DNA from: Procambarus clarkii
Lineage: Eukaryota > Arthropoda > Malacostraca > Decapoda > Cambaridae
DNA length: 64,000 nucleotides
Assembly: GCF_040958095.1 (NCBI RefSeq)
Contig: NC_091228.1
Coordinates: 9,436,340-9,500,339 of the forward strand
Direction of reading: 5' to 3'
Of the stretch, positions 11,820 through 54,823 are shown one piece after another. The notes beneath the pieces were generated by a model. That model was not told the origin of the DNA. It saw only the letters and a list, made by a program, of their open reading frames with translations, and searched no databases. The first letter of the stretch is position 1. Each line of letters opens with the position of its first letter. Position numbers and translations under genes: made by a program.

Positions 11820-11850
11820 TCTTGTCTCCCACACACTGTCTTGTCTACGG
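11820..11850 (+). repeat. Degenerate 22-bp unit between LTR and SINE
   Basis: CTTGTCTCCCACACACTGTC followed by TTGTCTAC is about one and a half decayed array units. It shows that both the LTR and the SINE landed within the same array. Confidence 0.7.
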
Positions 11851-15757: not shown

Positions 15758-15822
15758 CTCTCCCGTGTTCATCTAGATATGTCTCTAGCCTTATTTCTTA
15801 CTGGAGGGAACTTTGATTCAAA
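15758..15822. repeat. F2 module, copy 3, left part
   Basis: The first about 65 bases of F2, ending in the 4-bp target site CAAA at 15,819-15,822. F2 continues after the LTR at 17,180. Confidence 0.85.
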
Positions 15823-17179
15823 TGTAAATGATCTGGGGCTCAGATCATTGGTTCTCCCTTCTCCCTTTCTCCTTTCTTCTTGGCCGTCATTCGTCTCCCC
15901 CCTTCACCCCCCCCCCCCTGTCGCCCATTTGTCTAGGACCAAGAGGTTGACCTGAGGGGTGGTCTTGCCTCGTGATACCTTTGGCTTCCCCAACTCAACT
16001 TCCCCCACTCAGATTTCTCCTCTCCATCCCCCTCTCAAGTCCCTCTCTTTCCCCTCTCACCGGTCCCTTCCCTATACCAGGCGAGTCAATTGTCCCTACC
16101 CTTTATCTTAGAGAAGACTGGCTTGAACATAATTTATCAGTTGGTAAACATTGCTCGCAGGTGCACTGGGCTCCACAGAGGCGCCTTGTTTCCTTTCTAA
16201 TAGCTGGGGAGAGCTGACTAAATCTTCAGGAATTCATGTAGTCTTCCACTGCAGATCAGGGAAGGTGATTGGCGGGAGATAAGGGCCAAGTCCTTATTGG
16301 CCCTAGAGAGCCAGACCTCAGGCCTAAGTGTTAAATGGTTGACCTTTGCCAAAATAATGGGTGGAGCCCTGGCTGTATTAGATGGTGGGAGGAGTAATCC
16401 TTCCAGGCAATAAGCTGGTAAAATAAAATTTGATTAGTGTGTCTCGGGAGTGTGTGGAATAAAAGGGGCTGCAAGCCCGCATCCTAGGGGCTAAGGACAG
16501 CCATCAACATCGTGGCCTCAGTGCGATTTTAAGGTATTGTGCACTTGAATCTCATGTCCTCAGTAGATATCCATTGTGCCTCTAGGTTAATAGAATAGAA
16601 TAGGGTATATGTTCAAATTGTCTTAATATACATGTTTCATAAAATAAATTGTATAACTTGTCCAGTGGTATTCACTTAACTCCCCTGTGATATATTTCTC
16701 TACTCTGTCATTTTTATGTGTTGAATTGGAAACCCCCATGTTCTCCTACAGTTAATTAATAGATACTAAAGTTGTCCTTGGATTTAAATAAGTAACGTAA
16801 ATTAAACAAACTAATTTCCCAAAATTTATTACTGAAATTCATATTACCCGGGAGTCCCATGATTACTGATTCCTTGCCTTCCTGGGGGATCGGTGATAGA
16901 CACATTCAGATATGGTTGGTCGGGAAGGTGGTGGCAGTGTTTAATGATTTTTATTATTTTTTTTATAAATTTATACCCCCTTGTCCTTGATGTATCTTCC
17001 TCATTTAATATTCCTCTGATATATGTGGCAGTCCAGTGTCATACTGGACTGTAACAGTGTTAAGCTGGGGTATTGAGTGAAGAGAGAAAGAGAATTACAA
17101 CAGGGATAGCGAACGATTTCGATCACGAGAGACGATCATAGAGGTCAGTGGGTTATTACAATGGATATGGGTTATTACA
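15823..17179 (+). mobile_element. Solo LTR, 1,357 bp, inserted in F2
   Basis: It starts TGTAAATGATC and ends GGTTATTACA, with TGTAA...TTACA inverted termini. It is flanked by a perfect 4-bp duplication CAAA (15,819-15,822 and 17,180-17,183). The empty site is present at 7,452-7,470, so the boundaries are firm. A TATA-like AATAAAAG lies near 16,459 and an AATAAA at 16,643-16,648, consistent with plus orientation. No gag or pol is attached. Termini and a 4-bp duplication fit a Ty3/Gypsy-class element, but the parent family was not identified and differs from the Gypsy element at 37,220-45,973. Confidence 0.85.
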
Positions 17180-17765
17180 CAAAAAGAGGACTAAACAAAA
17201 GCCAAGCTTGTTCTTCTACACATAGAAATTTATTAAAAAAAATTTCAATTTCCATCAATTGATATTTAACACTTTGACATTCTATTATTTAATACAATAT
17301 TAACCAAATTAAAAGGGGGGGGGGATCACCCACTCCATACACGCCCACACCATACATGGCTAAATGGTTCAGACTCCACCAGCTTGTCAACACTACTACA
17401 CCCAATTAAGACAATGCATTACTGGCACTCTTACCTCACTAACAAGTTCACCCAGGGATGGATGATGGCTAATCACCCACCCGGATGGAGGAGCTGGTTG
17501 GATGTACTCTCCCTTGCAAAGGTTCCACTCTAACTGTTCAACACACCTCGCTGTCCAAGCCAGGGGTGCGTACTCTCCCAAGCCACTACAACGGGCTCTT
17601 TGTTAAGTACTCCCATGTCAGCGGATTGAAGATAGTCAACACCTCACCTCATACCATCTCGCACCACCCCAACACGCACATACGCATACATACACACTCC
17701 CACCCACAATTACAACTCACAATTATACATGAAAGAGTGCAAAATACTTGCACTGTTACACCCAC
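17180..17765. repeat. F2 module, copy 3, right part
   Basis: The remainder of F2 after the LTR, starting with the second CAAA and running to CACTGTTACACCC. A few substitutions distinguish it from copies 1 and 2 (for example CACTCCCACCC for CACACCCACCC near 17,695). Confidence 0.85.
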
Positions 17766-19459
17766 ACACCGTTCCTGTCTCCCCCACACACCGTTCCTGT
17801 CTCCTCCATACACCGTTCCTGTCTCCCCTACACACCGTTCCTGTCTCCTCCACACACATTTCCTGTCTCCCCCACACACCGGTCCTGTCTCCCCCACACA
17901 CCGTTCCTGTCTTTCCCCACCACACACCGTTCCTGTCTCCCCCACACACCGTTCCTGTCTCCCCCAGACACCGTTCTTGTCTCCGCCCATACACCGTTCC
18001 TGTCTCTTCCCCATCACACCATTCCTGTCTCTCCCACACACCGTTTCTGTCTCCCCCCACACACCATTCCTGTCTCCCCCAGACACCGTTCTTGTCTCCG
18101 CCCATACACCGTTCCTGTCTCTTCCCCATCACACCGTTCCTGTCTCCCCCACATACACCGTTCCTGTCTCCCCCACACACCGTTCCTGTCTCTCCCACAC
18201 ACACCGTTACTGTCTTTCCCCACCACACACCGTTCCTGTCTCCCACACACACACCGTTCCTGTCGTTCCCCACCAAACACCGTTCCTGTCTCCCACACAC
18301 ACACCGTTCCTGTCTTTCCCCACCACACACCGTTCCTGTCTCCCACACACACACCGTTCCTGTCTCTCCCACCCAAACAGTTCCTGTCTCCCCCACACAC
18401 CGTTCCTGTCTCCCTCCTCACACACCGTTCCTGTCTCCCCCCCCCACACATACCGTTCCTGTCTCCCCCACACACCGTTCCTGTCTCCCCCACATACACC
18501 GTTCCTGTCTCCCCCACACACCGTTCTTGTCTCTTCCACACACACCGTTCCTGTCTTTCCCCACCACACACCGTTCCTGTTTCTCCCACTCAAACCGTTC
18601 CTCTCTCCCCCACACACCGTTCCTGTCTCCCCCCACACACCGTTCCTGTCTCCTCCACACACGGTTCCTGTCTCCCCCACATACACCGTTCCTGTCTCTT
18701 CCACACACGGTTCCTGTCTCTCTCACACACACTGTTCCTGTCTTTCCCCACCCCACGGCGTTCCTGTCTCCCCCAACACCGTTCCTCTCTCTCTCCCCAG
18801 CATCGTTCCTCTCTCTCCCCCACACTGTTCCTGTCTCCCCACACACCGTTCCTGTCTCCCCCACACACCGTTCCTGTCTCTCATCCACACACCGTTCCTG
18901 TCTCCCCCCCACACACACACCGTTCCTGTCCCCCCCCCCACACACACACACCGTTCCTTTCTCTCCCACACACCGTTCCTGTCTCCCCCCCCACACACAC
19001 ACACCGTTCCTTTCTCTCCCACACACCGTTCCTGTCTCCCCCCACCACACCGTTCCTATCTTCCCCCACCACACACCTTTCCTGTCTCTCCCCCACACAC
19101 CGTTCGTGTCCCCTACACACCATTTTTGTCTCCCCTACACACCGTTCCTGTCTCTCCCCTCACACATTATTCCTGTCTCCCCCACACACTGTTCCTGTCC
19201 CCCATACACACCGTTCCTGCCTCTCATCCACACATCGTTCCTGTCTCCACCACATACCGTTCCTGTCTCCCACACACACCGTTCCTGTCTCCCCCACACC
19301 CCGTTCCTGTCTGCCCACACACCGATAGTGTCTCCTCCCCACACACCGATAGTGTCTCCTCCCCACACACCGTTCTTGTCTCCTCCCCACACACCGTTCC
19401 TGTCTCTCCCTCAACACACCGTTCGTGACTCTCCCCCACACCCACCGTTCCTGTCTCCC
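17766..19459 (+). repeat. 22-bp minisatellite array, segment 7
   Basis: Plus-strand array. The first about 200 bases (to about 17,960) are mirrored at 22,520-22,718. The rest has no exact inverted partner in the window. It contains local variants with long CA runs (CCCCCCACACACACACCG near 18,910-19,000). It ends abruptly at CTGTCTCCCAC. Confidence 0.95.
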
Positions 19460-20970: not shown

Positions 20971-22718
20971 ATGTGGGGGGGGGGCAGGAACGGGGTGTGG
21001 TGGGAGAGACAGGAACGGTGTGTGTGTGGGAGACAGGAACGGTGAGTGGGGGAGACAGGAAGACAGGAATGGTGTGTGGCAAGACAGGAACGGTGTGGGG
21101 TGGGAGACAGGAACGGTTTGGAGGGTGAGAGAGGAACGGTGTGGGGGGGGGGAGACAAGAACGGTATGTGTGTAAGAGAGACAGGAACTGTGTGTGGTGG
21201 GGGGAGACAGGAACGGTGTGGGGGGAGACAGGAACGGTGTGTGAATATGAGACAGGAACGGTGTGTGTAGGGGAGATAGGAACGGTGTGTGGGAGAGACA
21301 GGAACGGTGTGTGCAGAGACAGGAACGGTGAGTGGGGGAGAGACACGAACGGTGTGTGGATGAGAGACAGGAACGGTGTGTGGGGGAGACAGGAACGATG
21401 TGTGGATGAGAGAGAGGAACAGTATGTGGATGAGCGACAGGAACGGTGTGTGGGTGAGAGACAAGACCGGTGTGTGAATGAGAGACAAGAACGGTGTGTG
21501 AATGAGAGACAGGAACGGTGTGTGGGGGAGGCAGAAACGGTGTGTGGGTGAGAGAGGAACGGTGTGTGGTGGGGGGAGACAGGAACGGTGTGTGGGGGGG
21601 ACTGGAACGGTGTGTGGGGGGAATGAAACGGTGTGTGGTGGGAGAGACAGGAACGGTGTATGTGGGAGAGACAGGGATGGTGTGTGGGGGGGGGGAGACA
21701 GGAACAGTGTGGGGGGAGACAGGAACGGTGTATGGATGAGAGACAGGAACGGTGTGTGAGGAAGAGACTGGAACAGTGTGTGGGGGAGAGACAGGAACGG
21801 TGTGCGGGGGAGAGACTAGAACGATTTGTGGGGAGACAGGATCGGTGTGTGGGAGGAGACAGGAACGGTGTGTGGGGGGGACAGGAACGGTGTGTGTGGG
21901 GGGAGACAGGTACGGTGTGTGGGGGAGAGAGACAGGAACGGTGTGAGGGGGAGACAGGACCGGTGTGTGGAGGAGACAGGAACGGTGTGTGTGGGAGGAG
22001 ACAGGAATGGTGTGTGGTGGAGACAGGACCGGTGTTTGAGGGAGAGAGAAACGGTGAGTGTGGGAGAGATAGGAACGGTGTCTGGGGGTAGACAGGAACG
22101 GTGTGTGGGGGAGAGAGGAACGGTGTGTTGGAGAGAGAGGAACGGTGTGTGTGGGAGAGACAGGAACGGTGTGTGTGGGGAAACAGGAACGGTGTGTGGT
22201 GGAACGAGGAACGGTGTGTGTGGGAGAGACAGGAACGGTGTGTGGGGGGAGAGACAGGAACGGTGTGGGGGGGAGACAGGAACGGTGTGGGGGAGAGAGA
22301 GGAACAGTATAGGGGGGAGGGAGAGGAACAGTGTCTGAGGAGACAGGAACGGTGTGTGGGGGAGACAGGAACGGTGTGTGGGGAGACAGGAACGGTGTGG
22401 GGTGGGAGACAGGAACGGTGTGGGAGAGAGAGAGGAACGGTGTTGGGTAGAGACAGGAACAGTGTGTGGATGAGAGACAGAAATGGTGTGTGGATGAGAG
22501 ACAGGAGCGGTGTGTAGATGAGAGACAGGAACGGTGTGTGGGGGAGACAGGAACGGTGTGTGGTGGGGAAAGACAGGAACGGTGTGTGGGGGAGACAGGA
22601 CCGGTGTGTGGGGGAGACAGGAAATGTGTGTGGAGGAGACAGGAACGGTGTGTAGGGGAGACAGGAACGGTGTATGGAGGAGACAGGAACGGTGTGTGGG
22701 GGAGACAGGAACGGTGTG
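20971..22718 (-). repeat. 22-bp array, inverted orientation, segment 9
   Basis: It matches copy A array sequence (inverted) up to about 22,520 and then switches to match the F2-proximal array at 17,766-17,960. The switch point lacks the TTAATG variant found at the matching spot in copies A and C (near 12,515 and 27,972), which marks a recombination or assembly junction. Confidence 0.9.
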
Positions 22719-23304
22719 TGGGTGTAACAGTGCAAGTATTTTGCACTCTTTCATGTATAATTGTGAGTTGTAATTGTGGGTGGGAGTGTGTATGTATGCG
22801 TATGTGCGTGTTGGGGTGGTGCGAGATGGTATGAGGTGAGGTGTTGACTATCTTCAATCCGCTGACATGGGAGTACTTAACAAAGAGCCCGTTGTAGTGG
22901 CTTGGGAGAGTACGCACCCCTGGCTTGGACAGCGAGGTGTGTTGAACAGTTAGAGTGGAACCTTTGCAAGGGAGAGTACATCCAACCAGCTCCTCCATCC
23001 GGGTGGGTGATTAGCCATCATCCATCCCTGGGTGAACTTGTTAGTGAGGTAAGAGTGCCAGTAATGCATTGTCTTAATTGGGTGTAGTAGTGTTGACAAG
23101 CTGGTGGAGTCTGAACCATTTAGCCATGTATGGTGTGGGCGTGTATGGAGTGGGTGATCCCCCCCCCCCTTTTAATTTGGTTAATATTGTATTAAATAAT
23201 AGAATGTCAAAGTGTTAAATATCAATTGATGGAAATTGAAATTTTTTTTAATAAATTTCTATGTGTAGAAGAACAAGCTTGGCTTTTGTTTAGTCCTCTT
23301 TTTG
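22719..23304. repeat. F2 module, inverted, right part
   Basis: Reverse complement of 17,180-17,765, followed by the inverted solo LTR. It ends with the CAAA target duplication read as TTTG. Confidence 0.85.
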
Positions 23305-24660
23305 TGTAATAACCCATATCCATTGTAATAACCCACTGACCTCTATGATCGTCTCTCGTGATCGAAATCGTTCGCTATCCCTGTTGTAATTCTCTTTCTC
23401 TCTTCACTCAATACCCCAGCTTAACACTGTTACAGTCCAGTATGACACTGGACTGCCACATATATCAGAGGAATATTAAATGAGGAAGATACATCAAGGA
23501 CAAGGGGGTATAAATTTATAAAAAAAATAATAAAAATCATTAAACACTGCCACCACCTTCCCGACCAACCATATCTGAATGTGTCTATCACCGATCCCCC
23601 AGGAAGGCAAGGAATCAGTAATCATGGGACTCCCGGGTAATATGAATTTCAGTAATAAATTTTGGGAAATTAGTTTGTTTAATTTACGTTACTTATTTAA
23701 ATCCAAGGACAACTTTAGTATCTATTAATTAACTGTAGGAGAACATGGGGGTTTCCAATTCAACACATAAAAATGACAGAGTAGAGAAATATATCACAGG
23801 GGAGTTAAGTGAATACCACTGGACAAGTTATACAATTTATTTTATGAAACATGTATATTAAGACAATTTGAACATATACCCTATTCTATTCTATTAACCT
23901 AGAGGCACAATGGATATCTACTGAGGACATGAGATTCAAGTGCACAATACCTTAAAATCGCACTGAGGCCACGATGTTGATGGCTGTCCTTAGCCCCTAG
24001 GATGCGGGCTTGCAGCCCCTTTTATTCCACACACTCCCGAGACACACTAATCAAATTTTATTTTACCAGCTTATTGCCTGGAAGGATTACTCCTCCCACC
24101 ATCTAATACAGCCAGGGCTCCACCCATTATTTTGGCAAAGGTCAACCATTTAACACTTAGGCCTGAGGTCTGGCTCTCTAGGGCCAATAAGGACTTGGCC
24201 CTTATCTCCCGCCAATCACCTTCCCTGATCTGCAGTGGAAGACTACATGAATTCCTGAAGATTTAGTCAGCTCTCCCCAGCTATTAGAAAGGAAACAAGG
24301 CGCCTCTGTGGAGCCCAGTGCACCTGCGAGCAATGTTTACCAACTGATAAATTATGTTCAAGCCAGTCTTCTCTAAGATAAAGGGTAGGGACAATTGACT
24401 CGCCTGGTATAGGGAAGGGACCGGTGAGAGGGGAAAGAGAGGGACTTGAGAGGGGGATGGAGAGGAGAAATCTGAGTGGGGGAAGTTGAGTTGGGGAAGC
24501 CAAAGGTATCACGAGGCAAGACCACCCCTCAGGTCAACCTCTTGGTCCTAGACAAATGGGCGACAGGGGGGGGGGGTGAAGGGGGGAGACGAATGACGGC
24601 CAAGAAGAAAGGAGAAAGGGAGAAGGGAGAACCAATGATCTGAGCCCCAGATCATTTACA
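23305..24660 (-). mobile_element. Solo LTR, 1,356 bp, right-arm copy
   Basis: Reverse complement of the LTR at 15,823-17,179, running from TGTAATAACCC to ATCATTTACA and flanked by TTTG on both sides. It appears identical apart from homopolymer length (a C/G run near 24,568). It was carried along by the inverted duplication; it is not a separate insertion. Confidence 0.85.
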
Positions 24661-24725
24661 TTTGAATCAAAGTTCCCTCCAGTAAGAAATAAGGCTAGAG
24701 ACATATCTAGATGAACACGGGAGAG
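24661..24725. repeat. F2 module, inverted, left part
   Basis: Reverse complement of 15,758-15,822. Confidence 0.85.
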
Positions 24726-25417
24726 GTGGGGGGAGACAGGAACGGTGTGTGGGGGAGACAGGAACGGTGTGTGGGGGAGACAGGAACGGTGTGGGGGGGG
24801 AGACAGGAATGGTGTGTGGGGGAGACAGGAACGGTGTGTGGGGGAGACAGGAACGGTGTGGGGGGGAGACAGGAATGGTGTGTGGGGGAGACAGGAACGG
24901 TGTGTGGTGGGAGAAAGGAACGGTGTTTGGGGGAGACAGGAACGGTGTGGGGGGAGACAGAAGCGGTGTGTGTGGGAGACAGAAACGGTGTGGAGGGGTG
25001 ACAGGAACGGTGTGTGTGGGAGAGACAGGAACGGTGTGTGGTGGAGGGGAGACAGGAACGGTGTGTGGTGGAGACAGGGACGGTGTGTGGGGGGTGGAGA
25101 AGGGAACGGTGTGGGGGAGACAGGAACGGTGTGTGTGGGAGACAGGAATGGTGTGTGTGGGAGAGACAGGAACGGTGTGTGGTGGGGAGGAGACAGGAAC
25201 CGTGTGTGGTGGAGGAAGATAGGAACGGTGTGTGTGGGAGAGACAGGAACGGTGTATGGGGGGAGAGACAGGAACGGTGTGTAGATGAGAGACAGGAACA
25301 ATGTGTGTGGGGGGGGAGACAGGAACGGTGTGTGGGAAGACAGGAACGGTGTGGGGTGGGAGACAGGAACGGTGTAGGGGAGAGAGAGGAACGCTGTGTG
25401 GATGGGAGACAGGAACG
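24726..25417 (-). repeat. 22-bp array, inverted orientation, segment 10
   Basis: Complete inverted counterpart of 15,066-15,757. Its latter part is also a direct copy of 19,460-19,935, at an offset of about 5,482 bases. Confidence 0.95.
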
Positions 25418-26452
25418 AACGAACCCGACTCTACCGTCGGAGCGTGGAGCAGCGACATCAACTCCATCTGTGAGTCCGCTCCCGAAACCTCCACAACTTG
25501 GACGACGCCATTTAGTAGTCACAGGACTATACCAGCCAGAAATGCTAGATTCTTGTCCTAATAGCTCGAGAGGCAGCTGGGGCTGACCTCTGGTGAGGTG
25601 GCGCCTAGAAAATCAGAGCCATCTATTGAGCGATAAGGTTTACGTTTATGCAGGGTCCGTAAGTGCTATTTCCTAGTGTCCCAGTGTACTAATGAAGTAT
25701 CTGTATTTACAGAGCCGACGTAGGGCTGCTGTAATACGAGGACAGTCTACCCAGGGCAGCCAAGGTCACTACACCAGTCTGCTTTACGGAAGCAGTGAGC
25801 CGCCGCCGGAAGAGAACTGTGAAGTGTTCTACTGTCTTCCTGTGGAGTGGCAGAGACGGGATTCGTCGTACCCGGGGCTGGTTAATAGAAGAGACGACTG
25901 ACTAAGGTGCTGAAGAGGAGAGTAACCAGCGAGTTGCACGAAGCTCCTGCCTAGGGCTCGCTACCCTAGTATTTGCACGTGAAGTGGCCCAGCAGCGCGA
26001 ATCTGAAGGAATCTGCCAACACTGGGCTGGACTGTGATTGTGGGCCTTCACGTGGAAGCTCTTAGTAAGACTGGTTTGGCTGGCCCGTGGCCAGGGGTAG
26101 ACTCATTGTTGCTTCCCGGTACCTGCTAAGGATCGTACTACGGATGAGGAAACACGATAGCTTACAAGACTGGATCGCCATCATCGAAGAGCGATTAGTG
26201 TTCCATGAGACATTTTGTACATATTAGGTGTACAAATACTTTTGTAAGGATTATTTATGAGGTGATGGAAAAAGTTATCATATGTAAAACATATCGATAT
26301 TTTATGAAGTGTAGTATTCAATACAACCCCTCTTTTGTTTTACTTGCATTACCGAGCTCACTCCTTGAAAACCACTACTTACTTGGTGCCGGATACCAGT
26401 ACTTTAGAACCACCTGAAAAGAACCCTGTTGCGACCCATTGTGGCCGTAACA
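25418..26452. repeat. F1 module, copy C (inverted)
   Basis: Reverse complement of copy A with paired coordinates summing to about 40,483. By eye it is indistinguishable from A apart from homopolymer tracts at the array boundary. Confidence 0.85.
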
Positions 26453-28339
26453 ATGTGGGGGGGGGGGCAGGAACGGGGTGTGGTGGGAGAGACAGGAACG
26501 GTGTGTGTGTGGGAGACAGGAACGGTGAGTGGGGGAGACAGGAAGACAGGAATGGTGTGTGGCAAGACAGGAACGGTGTGGGGTGGGAGACAGGAACGGT
26601 TTGGGGGGTGAGAGAGGAACGGTGTGGGGGGGGGGGGAGACAAGAACGGTATGTGTGTAAGAGAGACAGGAACTGTGTGTGGTGGGGGGAGACAGGAACG
26701 GAGTGGGGGGAGACAGGAACGGTGTGTGAATATGAGACAGGAACGGTGTGTGTAGGGGAGATAGGAACGGTGTGTGGGAGAGACAGGAACGGTGAGTGGG
26801 GGAGAGACTCGAACGGTGTGTGGGGGAGACAGGAACGATGTGTGGATGAGAGACAGGAACAGTATGTGGATGAGCGACAGGAACGGTGTGTGGGTGAGAG
26901 ACAAGACCGGTGTGTGAATGAGAGACAAGAACGGAGTGTGAATGAGAGACAGGAACGGTGTGTGGGGGAGGCAGAAACGGTGTGTGGGTGAGAGAGGAAC
27001 GGTGTGTGGTGGGGGGGAGACAGGAACGGTGTGTGGGGGGGACTGGAACGGTGTGTGGGGGGAATGAAACGGTGTGTGGTGGGAGAGACAGGAACGGTGT
27101 ATGTGGGAGAGACAGGGACGGTGTGTGGGGGGGGGGGGGAGACAGGAACAGTGTGGGGGGAGACAGGAACGGTGTATGGATGAGAGACAGGAACGGTGTG
27201 TGAGGAAGAGACTGGAACAGTGTGTGGGGGAGAGACAGGAACGGTGTGCGGGGGAGAGACTGGAACGATTTGTGGGGAGACAGGATCGGTGTGTGGGAGG
27301 AGACAGGAACGGTGTGTGGGGGGGACAGGAACGGTGTGTGTGGGGGGAGACAGGTACGGTGTGTAGGGGAGAGAGACAGGAACGGTGTGAGGGGGAGACA
27401 GGACCGGTGTGTGGAGGAGACAGGAACGGTGTGTGTGGGAGGAGACAGGAATGGTGTGTGGTGGAGACAGGACCGGTGTTTGAGGGAGAGAGAAACGGTG
27501 AGTGTGGGAGAGATAGGAACGGTGTCTGGGGGTAGACAGGAACGGTGTATGGGGGAGAGAGGAACGGTGTGTTGGAGAGAGAGGAACGGTGTGTGTGGGA
27601 GAGACAGGAACGGTGTGTGTGGGGAAACAGGAACGGTGTGTGGTGGAACGAGGAACGGTGTGTGTGGGAGAGACAGGAACGGTGTGTGGGGGGAGAGACA
27701 GGAACGGTGTGGGGGGGAGACAGGAACGGTGTGGGGGAGAGAGAGGAACAGTATAGGGGGGAGGGAGAGGAACAGTGTCTGAGGAGACAGGAACGGTGTG
27801 TGGGGGAGACAGGAACGGTGTGTGGGGAGACAGGAACGGTGTGGGGTGGGAGACAGGAACGGTGTGGGAGAGAGAGAGGAACGGTGTTGGGTAGAGACAG
27901 GAACAGTGTGTGGATGAGAGACAGAAATGGTGTGTGGATGAGAGACAGGAGCGGTGTGTAGATGAGAGACATTAACGGTGTGTGGGGGAGACAGGAACGG
28001 TGTGTGGTGGGGAAAGACAGGAACGGTGTGCGGTGGGAGACAGGAACGGTGTGTGGGGGGAGACAGGAACGGTGTGTGTGGGAGAGACAGGAACGGTGTG
28101 TGGGGGGAGACAGGAACGGTGTGTGGGGGAGAGAAGAACGGTGTATGTGGGAGAGACTGGAACGGTGTGGGTGGAGAGTCAGGAACGGTGTGTGGGGGAG
28201 ACAGGAACGGTGTATGTTGGGGAGACAGGAACGGTGTGTGGTGGGGGAAGACAGGAACGGTATGTGTGGGAGAGACAGGAATAGTGGGGGCGGGGAGACA
28301 GGAACGGTGTATGTGGGGGAGACAGGAACGATGTGTGTT
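26453..28339 (-). repeat. 22-bp array, inverted orientation, segment 11 (copy C)
   Basis: Inverted counterpart of 12,156-14,030, unit for unit, differing mainly in G-run lengths. Confidence 0.95.
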
Positions 28340-28443
28340 TACTAGTTGTGTTTTTACGGGGGTTGAGCTTTGCTCTTTCGGCCCGCCTCTCAACTGTCAA
28401 TCAACTGTTTACTAACTACTTTTTTTTTTTTTTTTTTTCCACA

Positions 28444-28476
<33 letters not shown>

Positions 28477-28647
28477 AGGAAGCAGCCCGTGACAACTGAC
28501 TAACTCCCAGGTACCTATTTACTGCTAGGTAACAGGGGCATTCAGGGTGAAAGAAACTTTGCCCATTTGTTTCTGCCTCGTGCGGGAATCGAACCCGTGC
28601 CACAGAATTACGAATCCTGCTCGCTATCCACCAGGCTACGAGGCCCC
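28340..28647 (-). mobile_element. tRNA-Thr-derived SINE, right-arm copy
   Basis: Reverse complement of the SINE at 11,851-12,155. It has the same tRNA-like head (about 28,574-28,646), a longer CA/GT run (28,444-28,474) and the same LINE-like tail. The only clear differences are microsatellite and poly-A/T lengths. Confidence 0.9.
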
Positions 28648-28677
28648 CGTAGACAAGACAGTGTGTGGGAGACAAGA

Positions 28678-29665
28678 TGTAACATGCATGACCCCCCCCC
28701 CCCTTAGAGTTTACACCCCAGGGAAACCTTCTCCAAGAGGTCAGCCCAGATGACCTCCGGATTATCTTGTATGTTGATAACAAAATTCCTGGGCTAGTCA
28801 TAGTCAGCATAGTTTCAAGTATGTAATATTTCATGATACTCTTGTCAAACATTGCAATGGAATTAGACCCCAGATTCTTATGTGTAAACACCCATGGATC
28901 TCCCCTTTTAGCCAGGTCAAAGGTCAGTCACACACGTAATTAATAATTCCTTTCTTGAACAGTGTATGGTGAATGTCAAACAAGTTTAATGAAATTTCTT
29001 GAGTGTTTGTGCACGTGTAGCCGACCTCTTGGTAGCAACCGCAAATCTCCCCCTTCCCCCTTTTTTTTGGGGGTGTATATAGAGGTCGTGTAGAGACTTA
29101 GGGACAGAGTGCGGGACACCGGGATCGAGAGCGGGTCTGTGAAGAACATCTCAGCCAGGGAGAGACAGAGGTCTTAAGGTAATGTGTGTGATCTCTAAGG
29201 TTTTGTTCCATGTCCAAACTTCTTAACTTTTGGCCATTGTTAGAGAAGGAATTATAAGTGGTGATTGACATAATTTTGTTCTGAATAAACTCATGTTAAA
29301 TTTTCCGTCTGTGTCAATTGTTGAATCCTCTTAGCCTTTTGGATATAGTGGCTGACAACCGTCTCATAATTAATGAGAGTCATAGAAAGTACTCTCCAAG
29401 TCAAGCAATGTTTCTTGCCTCGTTGCTTGATATAGTCTCAATGGTGAAGGCAGATGATGGCAGCGTTATGTACTCCTGTGTAGCATTTCCTAGGCAGTGT
29501 ACTTTTGGTTCCAGTGTAACCATCATATGTCAGCTCATATTACAGTGTTCAATAACAGTTATCAAGTGCAAACTGATAGGAAGTGTTACTCAGGATAAGT
29601 AGTAGTGTGTACATTATTAGATTAGTGTCCATTACAATGGTGTTACATTTTAGAGCGGTGTTACA
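28678..29665 (+). mobile_element. Solo LTR, 988 bp, right-arm copy
   Basis: Reverse complement of the LTR at 10,831-11,819, here in its transcriptional sense. It runs from TGTAACATGC to GTGTTACA, flanked by AAGA (28,674-28,677) and AGGA (29,666-29,669). TATATAG lies at 29,076-29,082 and AATAAA at 29,284-29,289, giving a U3/R/U5 layout of roughly 0.4/0.2/0.35 kb. Confidence 0.8.
29076..29082 (+). promoter_or_regulatory. TATA box of the solo LTR
   Basis: TATATAG follows GGGGGTG and lies about 200 bases before the AATAAA at 29,284. This spacing is expected for a core promoter at the U3/R border. The mirrored copy is near 11,415. Activity is unknown. Confidence 0.55.
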
Positions 29666-30893
29666 AGGAACGGTGTGTGGTGGAGACAGGAACGGTGTGT
29701 GGATGAGAGACAGGAACGGTGTGTGGGGGAGACACTAACGGTGTATGGGTAGACAGGAACGGTGTGCAAGGGAGACAGGAACGGTGTGTGGGGGAGACAG
29801 GAACGGTGTGTGGTGGAGACAGGAACGGTGTGTGGATGAGAGACAGGAACGGTGTGTGGGGGAGACAGAAACGGTGTGTGGTGGGGAAAGATAGGAACAA
29901 TGGGGGGAGGGGGTAGACAGGAACGGTGTGGGGGGGAGACAGGAAAGGTGTGTGGATGAGAGACAGGAACGGTGTATGGGGGGAGACAGGAACGTTGTGT
30001 GGGGAGACATAAACAGTGTGGGGTGGGAGACAGGAACGGTGTGGGGGGAGAGAGAGGAACGGTGATGGGGGGAGAGAGAGGAACGGTGTTGGGGGGAGAG
30101 AGAGGAACGGTGTTGGGGGAGACATGAACGGTGTGTGTGGGAGACAGGAACGGTGTGTGGGGAGACAGGAACGGAGTGGGGTGGGAAACAGGAACGGTGT
30201 AGGAGAGAGAGAGGAACGGTGTTGGAGGAGACAGGAACGGTCTGTGGATGAGAGACAGGAACGGTGTGTGGATGAGAGACAGGAATGGTGTGAGTGGGGG
30301 AGACAGGAACGGTGTGTGGGGGAGACATTAACGGTGTGTGGGTAGACAGGAACGGTGTGTGGGGGAGACAGGAACGGTGTGTGGGGAGACAGGAACGGTG
30401 TGTGGTGGAGACAGGAACGGTGTGTGGATGAGAGACAGGAACGGTGTGTGGATGAGAGACAGGAATGGTGTGTGGATGAGAGACAGGAACGGTGTGTGGG
30501 GGAGACAGGAACGGTGTGTGGTGGGGAAAGACAGGAACGGTGTGTGTGGGAGAGACAGGAACGGTGTGTGGGGGAGACAGGAACGGTGTATGTGGGGAAG
30601 ACTGGAACGGTGTGTAGGGGGGACAGGAACGGTGTGGGGGGAGAGAGAGGAACGGTGTTGGGGGGAGAGAGAGGAACGGTGTTGGGGGAGACAGGAACGG
30701 TGTATGTGGGGAAGACAGGAACGGTGTGTTGGGGAGACAGGAACGGTGTATGTGGGGGAGACAGGAACGGTGTGTGGGGGAAGGGACAGGAACGGTGAGT
30801 GGTGGGGAAAGACAGGAACGGTGTGTGTGGGAGAGACAGGAACGGTGTGTGTGGTGGGGAAAGACTGGAATGGTGTGTGTGGGAGAGACAGGA
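29666..30893 (-). repeat. 22-bp array, inverted orientation, segment 12
   Basis: Inverted counterpart of about 9,603-10,830. It stops at GAGACAGGA, after which unique sequence begins. The left arm continues as array past the mirrored point. Confidence 0.95.
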
Positions 30894-31104
30894 AGATCGG
30901 CAGGGAGGGTTCAGGGTAGGGGGGTTTTCTATGAAGAGGAGGGTGGTAGAGTATCCCTCCCCTCTGGTGTTACTGGGCTGCTTATTGTGGGTTCCCCCTC
31001 TCACGTCTGGTGATATTGTGTTAGGGGCTGTGATTTCCTAGTTTTCTCCTCTCGCCATGCGCTATTTCCTTGCTTCTGCCGCTATCGCTCTCTCCTACCT
31101 TGTC
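30894..31104. other. Unique sequence beside the palindrome end
   Basis: About 210 bp with no recognised gene or repeat. It starts AGATCGGCAGGG and is pyrimidine-rich later. It marks the outer right limit of the repeat domain. Confidence 0.6.
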
Positions 31105-33741: not shown

Positions 33742-33930
33742 CTATATTAGAGCTTTCAGGTTTCGCACCCGCTATCCTTTTTCTCCTCTTTTTTTCACAG
33801 TATTTATAGTCGTCGATCTGAGAGCCGGGCCATCGTCCCACATCAAAACTTCCAGCAAAGTTGAACACTGCTTCCAGGGAAATGGGGTCAGGGTTTACTG
33901 CCAGCAGCTCTGTGCTTCTGTCTACCACTC
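33742..33930 (-). CDS. A2M: A2M exon e
   Basis: Acceptor AACCCAG precedes base 33,930. The first two bases complete the glycine codon begun in exon d and give LGVVDRSTELL across the junction. This matches the conserved A2M stretch (V-D-x-S-V-x-L-L) that follows the cysteine motif. It continues through NPDPISLEAVFNFA and SQIDDYKYC to a very basic KKRRKR run, then AGAKPESSNI. Donor GTTGGT is at 33,741. The exon is 189 bp and open throughout. The basic tract and lower similarity near the end suggest the bait region begins here or in the next exon. The 29-bp minisatellite starts just after the donor. Confidence 0.85.
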
Positions 33931-34137
33931 CTGGGTTTAGGAAATAATACAGCTTAATGTTAGTGTCTGGGCTGGCATATGCATATAAATATATAGTATG
34001 GTAAAATAAGAATACAATTTTCTTACTGTACTAGAATAACAACAAAATTTGCTTGTCCTGCTTGAATGAGCATCAGATTTTCTCAAAACATGTTTCCCTC
34101 AAGCAGGTCTAAGTCAGCCTTGGCGTGCTTTACTTAC

Positions 34138-34313
34138 CCAGGCTACACACAGAGTCTGGCTCTGAGGAGAGGGGACAGAGAGGCTTGTTCCCCAGGTTGT
34201 ACGCGAGAGGCTGACCAAGTGAGGTTTACGGTGTTACTGAGGCACTTGTCCACCTCCAGCTCCCTCGAGTCCGCCACAACCTCCCCATCTTGACGGGTAT
34301 ACCACACCAACAC
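34138..34313 (-). CDS. A2M: A2M exon d
   Basis: Acceptor TTTGCAG precedes base 34,313 and donor GTAAGT follows base 34,138. It encodes VLVWYTRQDGEVVADSRELE, then VDKCL and WSASRVQPGEQASLS. This is the highly typical A2M segment with a conserved cysteine and the R-V-x-P-G-E motif. After ASLS the frame shifts by one base at a run of four G on the plus strand (34,171-34,174). Beyond it the other frame reads SSEPDSVCSLG up to the donor, as expected for the family. The exon is 176 bp; 175 would keep phase with exon e. The extra base is either an assembly error or a disabling mutation. Confidence 0.9.
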
Positions 34314-36838
34314 CTGCAAAACATTATCAGTCTTAATGCCCCTCTTCATATGGCATACCAAACCTGGAACATATTATTGTTTTAGATTTATTAATGGAGG
34401 GGAGAAAATAAGGTTAATGCCATCATTCCACGTTACACATTCTACCAACAGTGTTACAGACCCAATAGCTGGTCATATTTGGGACGGGAAGATGATTAAC
34501 TAGCACCCACCATCCCAGTATATTGAATTAGGTATTTAGTTGTCATACATTGATAGCAGTATTGGTGTTGAGCTCGGCCCGCAAGCTGTTCACACTCGGG
34601 GTCCTTTCCAGACTTTTCTTCTGAACATGAAATTAAAATGTCAGTATTTTTCACATTTTATGTAAGTAAATACACAATTCTAAGACGTGGGACAAAATTT
34701 TAGCAGTGTAGCCTTAAAAATTAATTACAAATAAAATAAAATTGCATCTTTAAAAACGAAACGTGAACAAAAAAATGTTGACTTAAAATTTTGAAACATT
34801 TAAATTGTAACTGATTATTCGTTACGAAGTTGCAAAAACTCACTTTCAATAAATAAAGTTAAAACTTTTCACCACTAATAGGAGAGGCAGATATGGGCTG
34901 ATTATTATCAAACTTTACACATCTGTTGAGTCTGGCGGACTCATTGTGGTACGTACTGTTGCAACTATATTGATTTTGAAGCAAATGAGAAAAAATTCAC
35001 GAATCAATGATAATTTTACTCATTAGCAGATATATATTTCTGCATATGTATATCTAATTTCTTTAGTTAATGCATTTAGTTTTATCTTGTAGCACATTTA
35101 TACACTAAAAGGCATGTATTCGGTATGGCTAATATATGTATACCCTGTATACACAGTATGTTGTATATAATTTAGTATGCCATGTATTGTTGGATATTTC
35201 CAACATCGAATACAGCATTGTTGTATTCTCATTACTTATTACTAACCATACTTAATATTGTAGTAAGTAAATTAACAACTCGTAGAATTCTCATGTACTA
35301 ATAATTCATCTGTGCATTAGGCTAGAATTCTCACGTCACCTGAGGCCAGTATTGCGTCAGATTTCTTTACAGTAAAACACATTATATCCAATTTGTGTGA
35401 GAATTAAATACGATTCTCCATAATTAAAGGATTCTGTATGACAACTGATTGCAGACGAATTGTTCTCTAACTAAAAGCCGAATAGAGCGTTAGAATCATA
35501 GCGTCTACCTCGCGATAGTGTTAACGTCATCAATGAATGCCATGGGGAGACATTAATTCTTCTCCCTTATATATTTACTATTCTTAAATCGGTAAATAAT
35601 AATATTTCGTTCCTCTAAATAATAAACCCGTCCAGTCTTTAAAGTTTCAAGCGCGAATGCGAGAAATATTAATGTTCGTGACAATAATTTGTGTTATGAA
35701 CGTCGACTCGGCGTGGGTTGGAGGGACGCCATCCCCTTCAGTACGTACGCGGACACGTGCAGAGCCGAAAGGAGGCAGAACTGTGCTTACCGTACTCACA
35801 AAAGACGCCATTGCCCAGCAAATCGGGCAGGTGTTATCCATCCTCAGATGAAAGCCGCCACTGTGAGGCGTGAACGACCTTGCAGATAATATTTTCAACT
35901 AGTGCTGGTGTTAAATGAGGGACCCCTAGACTTGGTTCCTGACGACACGTGATCAGCCAGCTTGAAACGCATCACAATCCAGGATAGGTTCACCGGAGCC
36001 TGGGATGCGAAATTACGGCAATCTTAATACTCATACAGTGCCCACAGCTAAGTACCCTTTATTTGATGCATCATTTACAGGTCTAATAATAGCGGGGTGA
36101 TTGTTCGTCAAGCAGCGGGATAAACACCTAATAACAGGTGATTAGAATTCCATCTGTAGATATTAATAATTTTGAATATGAATTGAGTAGTTTAAATCAA
36201 TTGCTACTGGTAGTTATTTATCTTGCAGCTCGAGAGAAGAATTCCTCATGCTGTCTTCTCCATGTTGAACCGTACCACTCGTCAGTGTACCAGACTTGGA
36301 GATTAAGAGGACTTCCATGGTTATCTAAAGGAATCTGCTACAAGCTAAGGCTTATTTCTTTTTATCCATTTACTCGCAATTTGATTTATTCAGAATGTTT
36401 TGATATTAATGTGTGATTTACTGTAACTCATTACTATGCTCATATTCATGTTCTTCTTTATGTGAATGATATTATATTCAGCATTATTTATAGGATTAGA
36501 TTATTATTAATTGAATTAGTGAACGAACCACACTGATTCCTGGACGTACTTACCTCCAGTAATAACCCCCCAATGTAGGTGTTTGAGGGTTTTTTTTTTA
36601 ATAATACAGCCCATTAATTATTCTTATGATCATGCTTTCTAGTTATATCCATAGTCACTGGTTCTCTCTAGAATTTATCTAATGATCTGAAATTCTCAGT
36701 TTCCCTCTTTACTTTAAAAGCGGGTGGTCCTTCGTAATTTAATTTACTAGTTTAATTATTAATTAATCAGAATCAAGCCCAAATATCCCACATGTATAGT
36801 GTATATTTATTATTAATTTATTGCAATAAAAGTCCAGG
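34314..36838. other. A2M intron segment without recognised genes
   Basis: AT-rich intronic sequence. An open frame of 64 codons at 35,657-35,851 (plus) starts with a hydrophobic stretch and overlaps an 83-codon minus-strand frame at 35,647-35,898. Neither resembles a known protein, and overlap on both strands argues against a real exon. Nothing else was recognised. Confidence 0.5.
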
Positions 36839-45170: not shown

Positions 45171-45973
45171 TGTTGTAACCCACGAGTTATGTAGGAATTA
45201 TTAGCTAGAGGATCATTACTACAACACTTAACGAATTATGATTGGAAGTACATGTAAGTAGACAGACTATGGATCACATATCTAAGAAAGGTCAATGGAT
45301 TAAGACCGAAGCTGTTTAGCCAAATTAATAATTCCTGCAAAGAGGAATTATTCTTTGTCAGGCTTCTAGGATCAAGGTTACCGCTCTAGGGATAAGGTTA
45401 ATCCGCATTATACCTTCCTTGAGAGGCGGGGTGAAATGGTTGAGATAGATGCCTGACTGGAGTCAGTCTGATTGTGGGAGTTGAACTGGCAAGTCCTCTG
45501 GATCCCCGTTTGCGGCAGCAACGAAGTGTAGCAGACAGCTATGCGAGCACCTGATGTGATCTTAGTGACCAAGTTAAGTCCTGCAGTATGTGAGTATTGA
45601 ATGAAACACTACCGGGTGTGGAGCGTTGTAGTAATCATTCCGTATTAGGGACTTAGGCGGAAGTTACGAGTGTGGGTGGTGATTCGCCGGAGGTCAAGTG
45701 ATCTATGGGTATTGGAATCGTATTGACCTAATAGAGTATGTTAATATGTATTTATTTGTCAGAGTCTATTCTTTGTAATTAAATGACAAAACCCGACGGC
45801 CTTTAAATACCTTCCATATGTTCATTCATTGTGTTCCAGTACAAACCGAGTGGTACGCCTCAAGGGTCTGGTGTATGTAGGAGTATAGGTGGTAGTAACG
45901 GTTGCTGAGGCAAGGTGTTTATGTGTTGTATAATCGCTGTGTTCGGAATGAACCGGGGTTCAGCATCACGACA
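45171..45973 (+). repeat. 3' LTR of Gypsy element
   Basis: 803 bp, starting TGTTGTAACCC and ending ATCACGACA. It is collinear with the 5' LTR with scattered substitutions and small indels. It is followed by the second CAAC and the resumed 26-bp array. Confidence 0.9.
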
Positions 45974-46510
45974 CAACAAGCCACAGTTGTGTCCGCCTAC
46001 AACAAGCTACAATTGTGGCCCGCCTACAACAAGCCACAGTTGTGTCCACCTACAACAAGCCACAGTTGTGTCCGCCTTCAACAAGCCACAGTTGTGTCCG
46101 CCTACAACAAGCCCAGTTGTGTCCGCCTACAACAAGCCAGAGTTGTGTCCGCCTACAACAAGCCACAGTTGTGTCCGCCTACAACAAGGTACAATTGTGG
46201 CCGCCTACAACAAGCCACAGTTGTGCCTGCCTACAACAAGCCACAGTTGTGTCCGCCTACAACAAGCCACAGTTGTGTCCGCCTACAACAAGCCACAGTT
46301 GTGTCCGCCTACAACAAGCCACAGTTGTGTCCGCCTACTACAAGCCACAGTTGTGTCCGCCTACAACAAGCCACAGTTGTGTCCGCCTACAACAAGCCAC
46401 AGTTGTGTCCGCCTACAACAAGCCACAGTTGTGTCTGCCTACAACAAGCCACAGTTGTGTCCGCCTACAATAAGCCACAGTTGTGTCCACCTACAACAAG
46501 CCACAGTTGA
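45974..46510 (+). repeat. 26-bp minisatellite, right part
   Basis: Continuation of the array at 36,839-37,219 after the Gypsy insertion. About 20 units, including variants with CAATTGTGG for CAGTTGTGT. Confidence 0.95.
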
Positions 46511-48334: not shown

Positions 48335-48517
48335 CTTGACCTTGGGAGATGCAAGTTGGAGGAATGTTGATATTGATGTTGACGACTCCCCTGATGGTGT
48401 TGGGGAGGGGAGGGGGGAGAGGCCTCCACCAGGTGCTCCACACTGATGGGCAGCTCCCCGCTGGTCAGCTGGTACTCCTGGCTGCCCTGGTACTGGACCT
48501 TCCCGCGAGACACATAC
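48335..48517 (-). CDS. A2M: A2M exon c
   Basis: Acceptor TTACTTCAG precedes base 48,517 and donor GTCTGT follows base 48,335. It reads VSRGKVQYQGSQEYQLTSGE and then LPISVEHLVEAS, a good match to the fifth macroglobulin domain. Later pieces TIRGVVNINI and ASPKVK are in other frames. Three one-base surpluses are inferred: near 48,515, in the six-G run 48,412-48,417, and at AA 48,353-48,354. Removing them gives 180 bp (60 codons), which restores phase 0 on both sides. The partial copies in the adjoining array lack the first surplus base. Upstream lies the array of acceptor copies. Confidence 0.85.
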
Positions 48518-49553
48518 CTGAAGTAATAGTAGAATGTTAGACCCCACTGGTCAGCTGGTGCTCCTGGCTGCTCTGATACTGGACCTTCCTGCGAGACACA
48601 ACCTGAAGTAATAGTAGAGTGTTAGGCCCCGCTGGTCAGCTGGTTGCTCCTGGTTGCCCTGGTACTGGACCTTCCTGCAAGACACAACCTGAAGTAATAG
48701 TAGAGTGTTAGGCCCCGCTGGTCAGCTGGTACTCCTGGCTGCTCTGGGTACGGGACCTTTCCCGCGAGAACACAACCTGAAGTAATAGTAGAGTGTTAGG
48801 CCCCGTCTGGTCAGATGGTACTCCTGGCTGCTCTGGTACTGGACCTTCCTGCAAGACCAACCTGAAGTAATAGTAGAGTGTTAGGCCCCGCTGGTCAGCT
48901 GGTATCTCCTGGCTGCCCTGGTACTGGGACCTTTCCCGCGAGACACAACCTGAAGTAATAGTAGAGTGTTAGGCCCCGCTGGTCAGCTGGTACTCCTGGC
49001 TGCCCTGGTACGGGACCTTCCCGCGAGACACAACCTGAAGTAATAGTAGAGTGTTAGGCCCCGCTGGTCAGCTGGTACTCCTGGCTGCTCTGGTACTGGA
49101 CCTTCCTGCGAGACACAACCTGAAGTAATAGTAGAGTGTTAGGCCCCGCTGGTCAGCTGGTACTCCTGGCTGCCTCTGGTACTGGACCTTCCCGCGAGAC
49201 ACAACCTGAAGTAATAGTAGAGTGTTAGGCCCCGTTGGTCAGCTGGTACTCCTGGCTGCCCTGGTACTGGACCTTCCCGCGAGACACAACCTGAAGTAAT
49301 AGTAGAGTGTTAGGCCCCGCTGGTCAGCTGGTACTCCTGGCTGCCCTGGTACGGGACCTTCCCGCGAGACACAACCTGAAGTAATAGTAGAGTGTTAGGC
49401 CCCGCTGGTCAGCTGGTACTCCTGGCTGCCCTGGTACTGGACCTTCCCGCGAGACACAACCTGAAGTAATAGTAGAGTGTTAGGCCCCGCTGGTCAGCTG
49501 GTACTCCTGGCTGCCCTGGTACTGGACCTTCCTGCGAGACACAACCTGACGCA
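48518..49553 (-). repeat. 85-bp tandem array of A2M splice acceptor plus exon start, 12 copies
   Basis: Read on the minus strand each unit is 24 intronic bases (CCTAACACTCTACTATTACT plus TCAG) followed by 61 exonic bases that equal the start of exon c, up to ACCAGCGGGG. A CTAAC branch-point-like motif, pyrimidine-rich stretch and AG acceptor are kept in nearly every unit. Twelve partial exon starts precede the full exon. The outermost copy, at about 49,549, has a different intron flank (CTTGCGTCAG) and may be the original acceptor context. No unit has an obvious strong donor. Read in frame, each partial exon meets TAA in the next unit's CTAAC. Confidence 0.9.
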
Positions 49554-49669
49554 AGCAAGTAGCTTCGTATGCAGGTCTAATGGTCAATGAGAATTTTAAG
49601 TTGTATATTTCATTAAACAAATTTTATATCTAACATTCATTAGAACTCTTCCAGCTAAACAATTGAGGA

Positions 49670-50467: not shown

Positions 50468-50670
50468 CTGGACAGTAAAGATGGCGGAGGTCTGGTCGGA
50501 GGCGGAGAAGAGGACTGGCAGGAGGTGGTCTTGGGCCTCTCCAGGCACACACTTGAGCTTGCCTCCGGGGCATGGATCAACAGCGACGAGTTAGAGGGAG
50601 AGAATGAGTGCTCCAGGGTCTTCGAGAACTCTGACTGATGCATATTCGCCCGGGAGTTCAGGGCCTTTAT
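50468..50670 (-). CDS. A2M: A2M exon b
   Basis: Acceptor CTCCTCAG precedes base 50,670 and donor GTAATT follows base 50,468. It reads IKALNSRANMHQSEFSKTLE and then HSFSPSNSSLLIHAPE. One base later the frame moves to GKLKCVPGEAQDHLLPVLFS and ASDQTSAIFTVQ. The F-S-P-S segment and the cysteine before the G-E turn match the A2M family. A single missing G at the GG pair near 50,562-50,563 explains the shift. The exon is 203 bp; 204 would be 68 codons in phase 0 on both sides. Sequon NSS is present, consistent with a secreted glycoprotein. Confidence 0.87.
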
Positions 50671-52261: not shown

Positions 52262-53305
52262 GGTAGCACACAACGAGCAACACAACTACCGTGAACCACC
52301 AGCCGCAGTAACGAGCATCACAACTACCGTGAACCACCAGCACCGAAGTAACGAGCAACACAACTACCGTGAACCACCAGCACCGAAGTAACGAGGCAAC
52401 ACAACTACCGTGAGCCACCAGCACCGAAGTAACGAGGCATCACAACTACCGTGAACCACCAGCACGAAGTAACGAGCACAACTACCGTCCCCCCCAGAGG
52501 CAATCACAACTACCGTGAACCACCAGCACAGAAGTAACGAGCAACACAACTACCGTGAACCACCAGCACGAAGTAACGAGGCATCACAACTACCGTGAAC
52601 CACCAGCACAGAAGTAACGAGGCAACACAACTACCGTGAACCACCAGCACAGAAGTAACGAGCAACACAACTACCGTGAACCACCAGCACCGAAGTAACG
52701 AGGCAACACAACTACCGTGAACCACCAGCACAGAAGTAACGAGCATCACAACTACCGTGAACCACCAGCACAGAAGTAACGAGCAACACAACTACCGTGA
52801 ACCACCAGCACGAAGTAACGAGGCAACACAACTACGTGAACCACCAGCACGAAGTAACGAGCATCACAACTACCGTGAACCACCAGCACAGAAGTAACGA
52901 GCATCACAACTACCGTGAACCACCAGCACAGAAGTAACGAGAACACACAACTACCGAGTGAACCACCAGCACAGAAGTAACGAGCAACAAACTACCGTGA
53001 ACCACCAGCACAGAAGTAACGAGCATCACAACTACCGTGAACCACCAGCACCGAAGTAACGAGCATCACAACTACGTGAACCACAGCACAGAAGTAACGA
53101 GCATCACAACTACCGTGAACCACCAGCACAGAAGTAAACGAGCACACAACTACCGTGAACCACCAAAGACAGAAGTAACGAGCATCACACACAATACCGT
53201 GAACCACAGCACAGAAGTAACGAGCAACACAACTACCGTGAACCACCAGCACGAAGTAACGAGGCAACACAACTACCGTGAAACACCGGCACAGAGGTAA
53301 CGAGC
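52262..53305. repeat. 40-bp minisatellite, about 26 copies
   Basis: Tandem units with core CTACCGTGAACCACCAGCAC, then (A/C)GAAGTAACGAG and CAACACAA or CATCACAA. Many units differ by one-base gains and losses (CACGAAG versus CACAGAAG, GAGCA versus GAGGCA). Confidence 0.95.
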
Positions 53306-54112
53306 ACAAGCTCAGAAGTCAAGATTCAATATGTGTCAACACAGAACTAACGAACACAGTAATATATGGGACTGCACAAGGCATGTTGTCCCATGTGAGG
53401 CAGCTCTTATTATGCTACACAACTCGTCCATCATGTTTATATTCATTGATCCCACTTGTATTTTATTATAAGTAATATCTTTTATAAATCAACAAATCTA
53501 TTCTCAAACCTGTATTTACCAGGCCTTTACTGAATCTAAACGTCCAGTTTGTACCCATTGTTTCGTGCTTTACTTTGTCTTCCTATAAACTATGAGTTCC
53601 GTCCTCTCCCTTGTTCTGCAATCAATATACAGAGTATTTGAACCTCTTCTTCTTCCCACTGTTGATACTCGTCCCTCTCCTGGTTTGGCTATGTTGATGA
53701 CAGTTGTTCTATGGGCTCATAACCGTCTTTTTCTAGCCTTCCTCTCCTCTTAACAATCTGGCTCCTCCCTATCAATTTCTAAGTATAATTGTAATCTAAT
53801 TCCATTCCTCCTGTCCAGACGTTCAAGTTCACAGCTCTGTGTCCGGTTTGTCTTTCTCTGTGTGCCGCAATTTTAAGCACAATGGTACATATATTTACTT
53901 CATTTCCTACCATCCACTTTCTCAAGAAAAGTGTTCTTGTCTCTCTTCCTCCACGTCCAACACATCAGTGACCTTCAGTTTTTATTCTGAAATTTCTATT
54001 ATTTACAAGTCTTTCTCTCGCCTTGGTTACCTTTTACATTTTATCAACTTTGCCTATTATCAAGCTAAAGGAAATTTCTTTCATCTTAAACCTGTTTCAA
54101 CACTAGTAGTAC
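53306..54112. other. A2M intron, no feature recognised
   Basis: Pyrimidine-rich sequence on the plus strand with short incidental frames. It ends at the target duplication of the small retroposon. Confidence 0.5.
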
Positions 54113-54377: not shown

Positions 54378-54660
54378 TATAATAATAATTGTTTACTGAC
54401 TAAACGTTATAATAATTATTGTTTACTGACTAAACGTTATAATAATAATTGTTTACTGACTAAACGTTATAATAATAATTGTTTACTGACTAAACGTTAT
54501 AATAATAATTGTTTACTGACTAAACGTTATAATAATAATTGTTTACTGACTAAACGTTATAATAATAATTGTTTACTGACTAAACGTTATAATAATAATT
54601 GTTTACTGACTAAACGTTATAATAATAATTGTTTACTGACTAAACATTATAATAATAATT
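54378..54660. repeat. 30-bp minisatellite, about 9 copies
   Basis: Units contain TTGTTTACTGACTAAACG followed by TTATAATAATAA. It lies about 20 bases downstream of exon a, so it begins almost at its donor. Confidence 0.95.
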
Positions 54661-54679: not shown

Positions 54680-54823
54680 GTAAACTCTCTTGGTGTTGTA
54701 GACTGGCAAGACTGTTGTGAAGAGACCATCTGGTGCTGTGGTCATGTTGGTGCAGCGACCAGCTGCACACACCTCCATGGGGACACCACCTGCCGGAGTG
54801 CCGTCTGGCTTCTCAGCCCTCAC
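54680..54823 (-). CDS. A2M: A2M exon a
   Basis: Acceptor TGTTGCAG precedes base 54,823 and donor GTAAGT follows base 54,680. It is 144 bp, 48 codons, phase 0 at both ends, with no frame problem. It reads VRAEKPDGTPAGGVPMEVCA, then GRCTNMTTAPDGLFTTVLP and ends TKRVY. The P-D-G-x-P-x-x-G-V-P turn followed by a cysteine pair is typical of the fourth macroglobulin domain. NMT is a glycosylation sequon. This is the most 5' exon of the gene seen in the window. Confidence 0.87.

Follow-up and report, generated by a model that had tools for sequence, protein, structure and literature searches.

Twelve tandem partial copies of an intron/exon boundary precede exon C of an A2M gene in the window, the 64,000-nucleotide stretch of Procambarus clarkii DNA analysed in this study. 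We put at about two in three the probability that this array is an unstable intron/exon-boundary minisatellite, or 'mirage', which is mostly spliced past, is perhaps leaky when long, and needs no selected function. This reading draws on the presence of arrays in all 18 close copies of the exon, their fast turnover, decoys that look neutral, two gene models that use the last acceptor and a precedent in amphioxus. Against it stand a gene model, P0004, that ends at a decoy, and the longer arrays of broken gene copies, which could mean that long arrays are harmful.

Structure of the array and its host gene

The original prediction, that an acceptor and exon start were repeated twelve times in tandem at this place, was confirmed: 12 partial units are followed directly by exon C, giving 13 acceptors (Table 1). 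TRF reported a period of 85, 12.8 copies and 94% matches, so the array is not a chance arrangement. Counted at the G of AG, the acceptors lie at 49546, 49461, 49376, 49291, 49206, 49120, 49035, 48950, 48862, 48777, 48689, 48603 and 48518. The predicted unit of 85 bp (24 + 61) was correct in anatomy and held in length for 8 of the 12 window units, the others having 86 or 88 bases. Its 24 nt of intron end form a compact branch-point motif, a tract and AG, and the 24 nt of the real acceptor are those of the last decoy unit. The CTAAC-type signal, expected at the acceptors generally, belongs to acceptors 2 to 13; the first (49546), ~0.9 kb from exon B, has an intron end of its own, ACTTGCTTGCGTCAG, with pyrimidines at 10 of 17 positions compared with 12 of 17 for the unit acceptor, and with an additional AG 19 nt upstream of the intron end.

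It had also been proposed that any decoy would lead to an in-frame stop supplied by the branch-point motif of the next unit. That anatomy was right, and when every stop codon that a unit holds in the reading frame set by its acceptor is counted, 10 of the 12 window units and 96 of the 102 units of 17 other loci contain one. In these 17 non-window loci, AG is intact in 101 of the 102 units, and CTAAC and the GT at the unit start in 100 each; 91 units are exactly 85 bases long. In the ten genes that are apparently whole, AG is kept in 45/45 units and CTAAC in 43/45. The possibility that the units are alternative coding exons was rejected, as they lack a good donor and an in-frame stop is nearly always present.

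When exons A to D of the paralogue L023 are joined, the product matches A2M_BRD (2.3e-16), and solved A2M structures are matched by the same exons of a paralogue (best 7voo_A, 2.4e-7); the MG4 match was below the cut-off in the profile search of the exons. A full-length relative, P0018 (1486 aa), has the A2M domain set according to precomputed Pfam. Of the 17 other loci, all but L014, which lacks three bases, have the full 204 nt of exon B, and the exon C donor is fixed by the start of exon D (VLVWYT). Further minisatellites were observed within the exon A to D span, at 45973-46509, 52272-53306 and 54378-54660 (26, 40 and 30 base units).

Table 1. Features of the A2M copy and its array in the window, in order of transcription
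Feature	Position	Strand	Remarks
Exon A, MG4 region	54680-54823	-	144 nt; MG4 label from precomputed domains of P0004
Exon B	50468-50670	-	donor CAG/GTAATT; 203 nt here, one base missing
Unique intron end and first acceptor	49546-49585	-	...GAAGCTACTTGCTTGCGTCAG
Array of 12 partial units	48518-49545	-	unit: 61 nt from the start of exon C, then 24 nt of intron end (CCTAACACTCTACTATTACTTCAG)
Exon C	48335-48517	-	donor AAG/GTCTGT after 48335; 180 nt in readable paralogues, 183 here
Exon D (matched part)	34173-34319	-	VLVWYTRQDGEVVADS...; sequence match
Exon E (matched part)	33743-33931	-	GVVDRSTELLAVNP...; sequence match

Array length and gene state across the A2M family

The body of exon C was found at 20 genomic places, 18 on scaffolds C79 and C18 and one each on C12 and C68. 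Every one of the 18 copies on C79/C18 carries an array, with unit counts of 12 (window), 12, 11, 11, 10, 10, 7, 7, 6, 5, 4, 4, 4, 3, 3, 2, 2 and 1, and flank divergence among the loci is at most 6.2%. Judged from these flanking sequences, array turnover is fast: L009, the near twin of the window copy, and L019 are 0.7% apart in 2.1 kb of flank and yet have 12 and 4 units, and L017, L020 and L022, which are 0.6-0.7% apart, have 5, 4 and 3 units, respectively.

The diverged copies on C12 and C68 have no array beside exon C. At L027 (C68 ~15.054 Mb), the 61-nt part occurs in two identical copies, with one full 86-base unit and a stub. They lie on the same strand as C68 exon C (L026, a diverged A2M gene) and ~7.3 kb upstream of it, presumably in the same intron as that before this exon. 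The unit thus either predates the split of the C68 gene from the others or was copied there, and L027 is perhaps a stranded older mirage.

A BRD exon is located within ~23 kb downstream in 17 of the 18 array loci, the exception being L021. At least 12 arrays have a same-strand TED match 34 to 76 kb downstream with no intervening array, in a search which scored 127 of 156 candidates and in which a missing TED is weak evidence. In two of those 12 TED-linked loci, L011 and L013, exon C is split by an insertion of ~1 kb whose ends are LTR-like. The interruption, after unit position 39, was seen in L011, L012 and L013 (C79 ~12.039, 12.087 and 0.288 Mb), and the L012 insert has TGTTAC...GTAACA ends with GCCAG on both sides, like a solo LTR. 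L012 and L013 are identical in the 2.1 kb flank, and the L012 insert stretch is also identical in L013; the two are perhaps a duplicated assembly.

Arrays have a median of 10 units in the 8 broken or truncated copies and of 4 in the 10 apparently whole genes (p 0.03), the latter being defined by TED and BRD matches and open exons B and C rather than by complete gene models. After collapsing near-identical loci the p value was 0.20, and the link of array length with gene state is suggestive only. Longer arrays in broken copies would be expected both if long arrays do harm and if dead copies are under relaxed constraint. Two long-array genes have open exons B and C and a downstream TED match, L010 (11 units) and L015 (7 units).

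The A2M family as a whole shows a large recent expansion, with 18 exon C copies, all much alike, spread over two scaffolds and at least 115 TED matches genome-wide among the 127 of 156 candidates scored. Near four BRD exons on C79 (near 9.005, 9.593, 10.986 and 12.457 Mb) no exon C was found, and the model P0033 (1271 aa) lacks the part encoded by exons A to C; there may be a shortened form of A2M, or the assembly may be missing exons.

Acceptor choice and constraint on the decoys

If the array is a mirage, a tandem duplication would have taken in 61 nt from the start of exon C together with a 24-nt minimal 3' splice site, and slippage, unequal exchange and conversion may then have shifted the unit number to the observed counts of 1 to 12. 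The array would be removed as intron in most transcripts. As the real acceptor and the CTAAC-type decoys are near-identical locally, position must distinguish them, and under exon definition the exon-proximal acceptor would win because it is closest to the exon C donor. Some long-array transcripts would nevertheless take a decoy, because the signal of the CTAAC-type decoys hardly differs from that of the real acceptor, and would reach the in-frame TAA at codon 22, as in one public gene model; such transcripts would be lost or yield a truncated protein.

Public models are available at three array loci. Two use the last acceptor: P0018, some of whose residues were found at L024 (2 units) alone, and P0002, which carries exon B of L014 (7 units). 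The third, P0004 (340 aa, a P. clarkii protein model), ends at a decoy with ...TVQ/VVSRGKVQYQGSQEYQLTSGA-stop, i.e. ...TVQVVSRGKVQYQGSQEYQLTSGA, so that the decoy-terminated product of the original prediction appears exactly so in a computed model. P0004 maps to L009 (12 units), of which only units 2 and 8 give its end, unit 2 being the first behind a CTAAC-type signal. Its exon A has AEM, seen in L009 alone among the 14 loci readable there; this stretch is unread at L014, L015, L016 and L018, and at these four loci the exon B translation is not that of P0004. The model proves little, because it is a computed model of a gene in which another array precedes any TED match (127 of 156 candidates scored). 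Models matching the C68 and C12 exons (P0020 and P0022) have normal junctions.

The decoys might instead act as a throttle, competing with the real acceptor so that the unit number sets the output of each paralogue and is kept or tuned by selection. We regard this as unlikely, and as slightly less probable still its stronger form, in which decoy number would be a rapidly evolving, roughly analogue dial on paralogue output and long arrays would silence genes by unproductive splicing. Decoy and real acceptors do share nearly the same 24-nt signal, followed by a stop in nearly every unit; the AG and CTAAC motifs are well kept in the apparently whole genes, and P0004 uses decoy 2 or 8 at a 12-unit locus.

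Variation among the units speaks against such selection. For 37 distinct variants over 85 sites, 3.1 would be expected in the 7 core signal sites (CTAAC + AG) if placement were uniform, and 3 were seen, two of which (AG) come from one L011 unit. An unproductive splice site conserved beyond the rest of the unit was thus not found in this per-position table, which covers 101 of the 102 units; in the one left out, a 67-base L015 unit, a C of the CTAAC stretch is changed to A, which would raise the signal-site variants seen to 4. Variation touches 21 of the 61 positions derived from the exon and 9 of the 24 derived from the intron (Fisher p 0.81). Pairwise pN/pS was 1.09 for 62 decoys, versus 0.47 for exon B and 0.42 for exon C 61-180, across 13 loci whose pairs are non-independent. 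The set comprised 13 of the 17 non-window loci, without L011-L014, in which exon C is interrupted or exon B carries deletions; decoys were taken where their length was exactly 85 bases (62 of the 64 units in the 13 loci). In the same 13 loci, the real exon C has non-synonymous differences only and zero synonymous ones in its opening 60 nt; this segment is not plainly constrained, perhaps through conversion with the decoys, which is a point against the mirage reading. Variants are common to several units and to some real exons.

Since the signal sites vary as expected and pN/pS is 1.09, the decoys look untranslated and unconstrained, varying like neutral DNA. The argument that the kept motifs imply function is not supported, as signal positions vary no less than the rest and array lengths are widely different in the 18 copies, and selective upkeep of the decoy signals was rejected as unproven. 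Changes in unit number within 0.7% divergence are better explained by drift than by tuning, the last acceptor is the one used in two gene models of array loci, and P0004 may only reflect a broken gene.

Still less probable is self-repair by re-splicing, in which later units would be removed as mini-introns and normal mRNA would result whichever acceptor was used first. The units start with GT, hold CTAAC and end with AG, and the same mRNA would follow from any first choice; however, their donor CAG/GTTGTG scores -3.3 on a donor matrix, compared with 1.4 to 5.1 for the donors of exons A to C. The start of exon C in the window, CAG/GTATGT, scores 5.7 with the same matrix, and its extra base is probably an error.

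Over 9.6 kb, the window copy and its near twin L009 differ by 10 substitutions but by 90 gaps, which together make 116 gap positions. Of the gap positions, 77 are below ~49.2 kb and 26 fall in one 300-base bin, at the minisatellite near 52.3 kb. This excess of gaps over substitutions suggests consensus errors in the window copy. Its exon C has three 1-base insertions found in no other uninterrupted copy. Errors of the consensus are the likely source of the frameshifts in exons B and C, with decay of a truncated copy as another reading. The statement that the whole exon is reached from the last acceptor alone holds for the family, but not for the window letters, because exons B and C are frameshifted as written. 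The nearest same-strand downstream TED match is ~530 kb off, beyond another BRD exon (127 of 156 candidates scored), and the window holds a probably truncated or misassembled A2M copy. Inverted arms at 9602-19459 and 21050-30894 (~9.9 kb, 96.6% identity), largely of a 22-24 base minisatellite, were also observed; they are either a real palindrome or a fold-back assembly product. The gaps, the inverted arms and the identity of L012 and L013 could be taken to mean that the repeat copies are a long-read assembly error, but this is very improbable and was rejected for the array as a whole, since 17 further loci carry arrays with distinct counts and variants and mostly exact 85-base units.

Comparison with known systems

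Poison exons and unproductive splicing are a known kind of regulation. Use of an upstream acceptor in crayfish A2M would likewise give a premature stop, but the crayfish units form no separate cassette with its own good donor and show no extra site constraint. In the Rlec lectins of Macrobrachium nipponense, repeats of 30/33 bases are coding and in frame, with variable number and splice variants (PMC7536079). Crayfish A2M is similarly a decapod immune gene family with a variable tandem repeat number, whereas its repeats would be intronic in the normal transcript. A model of intron gain by duplication of AG/GT proto-splice sites, cited in PMC3087553, shares its geometry with the crayfish unit, which begins with GT and ends with AG; the donor of this unit is, however, weak by the matrix used.

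The closest parallel is with amphioxus, where mirages, according to two papers, are minisatellite-like intron/exon-boundary duplications in the globin genes BflGb6/BflGb9, Adh3, troponin C and PGBD5 (PMC3087553, PMC3902484). In BflGb6, the 3' end of an intron and the 5' part of exon 2 are repeated, with 6 and 3 units in two haplotypes (PMC3087553), and the authors report from RT-PCR that regular splicing was undisturbed (PMC3087553, PMC3902484). AG/GT signals are kept in many copies, and the clusters are internally homogenised (PMC3087553, PMC3902484). In the open-licence PubMed Central literature, the two mirage papers found concern amphioxus, and by title and abstract start none of the other matches listed dealt with boundary repeats or decapod A2M arrays. 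The array had been called unusual, which is true of its copy number and gene family, while the kind of structure is known from amphioxus. With it, the known range of mirages would come to include a decapod and an entire gene family. A natural dose series for 3' splice-site choice is also on hand in the 18 loci, which are much alike and have 1 to 12 near-equal upstream acceptors; the series bears, too, on whether boundary minisatellites cost expression.

Like the amphioxus mirages, the crayfish arrays are tandem copies spanning an intron/exon boundary, in the arrangement of BflGb6, with AG/GT kept in nearly all units and with length instability, here among paralogues. They differ in that the host is a crustacean A2M gene rather than cephalochordate genes, the unit is of 85 bases compared with 150-160 in BflGb6 and 10-72 in Adh3, and up to 12 units are present compared with 6 and 3 in BflGb6; an array in all 18 close copies found and an in-frame stop in nearly every unit are particular to the crayfish. 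RT-PCR lies behind the amphioxus case, and the crayfish case is known from sequence and gene models. On this comparison, the crayfish array most likely works as the amphioxus mirages do.
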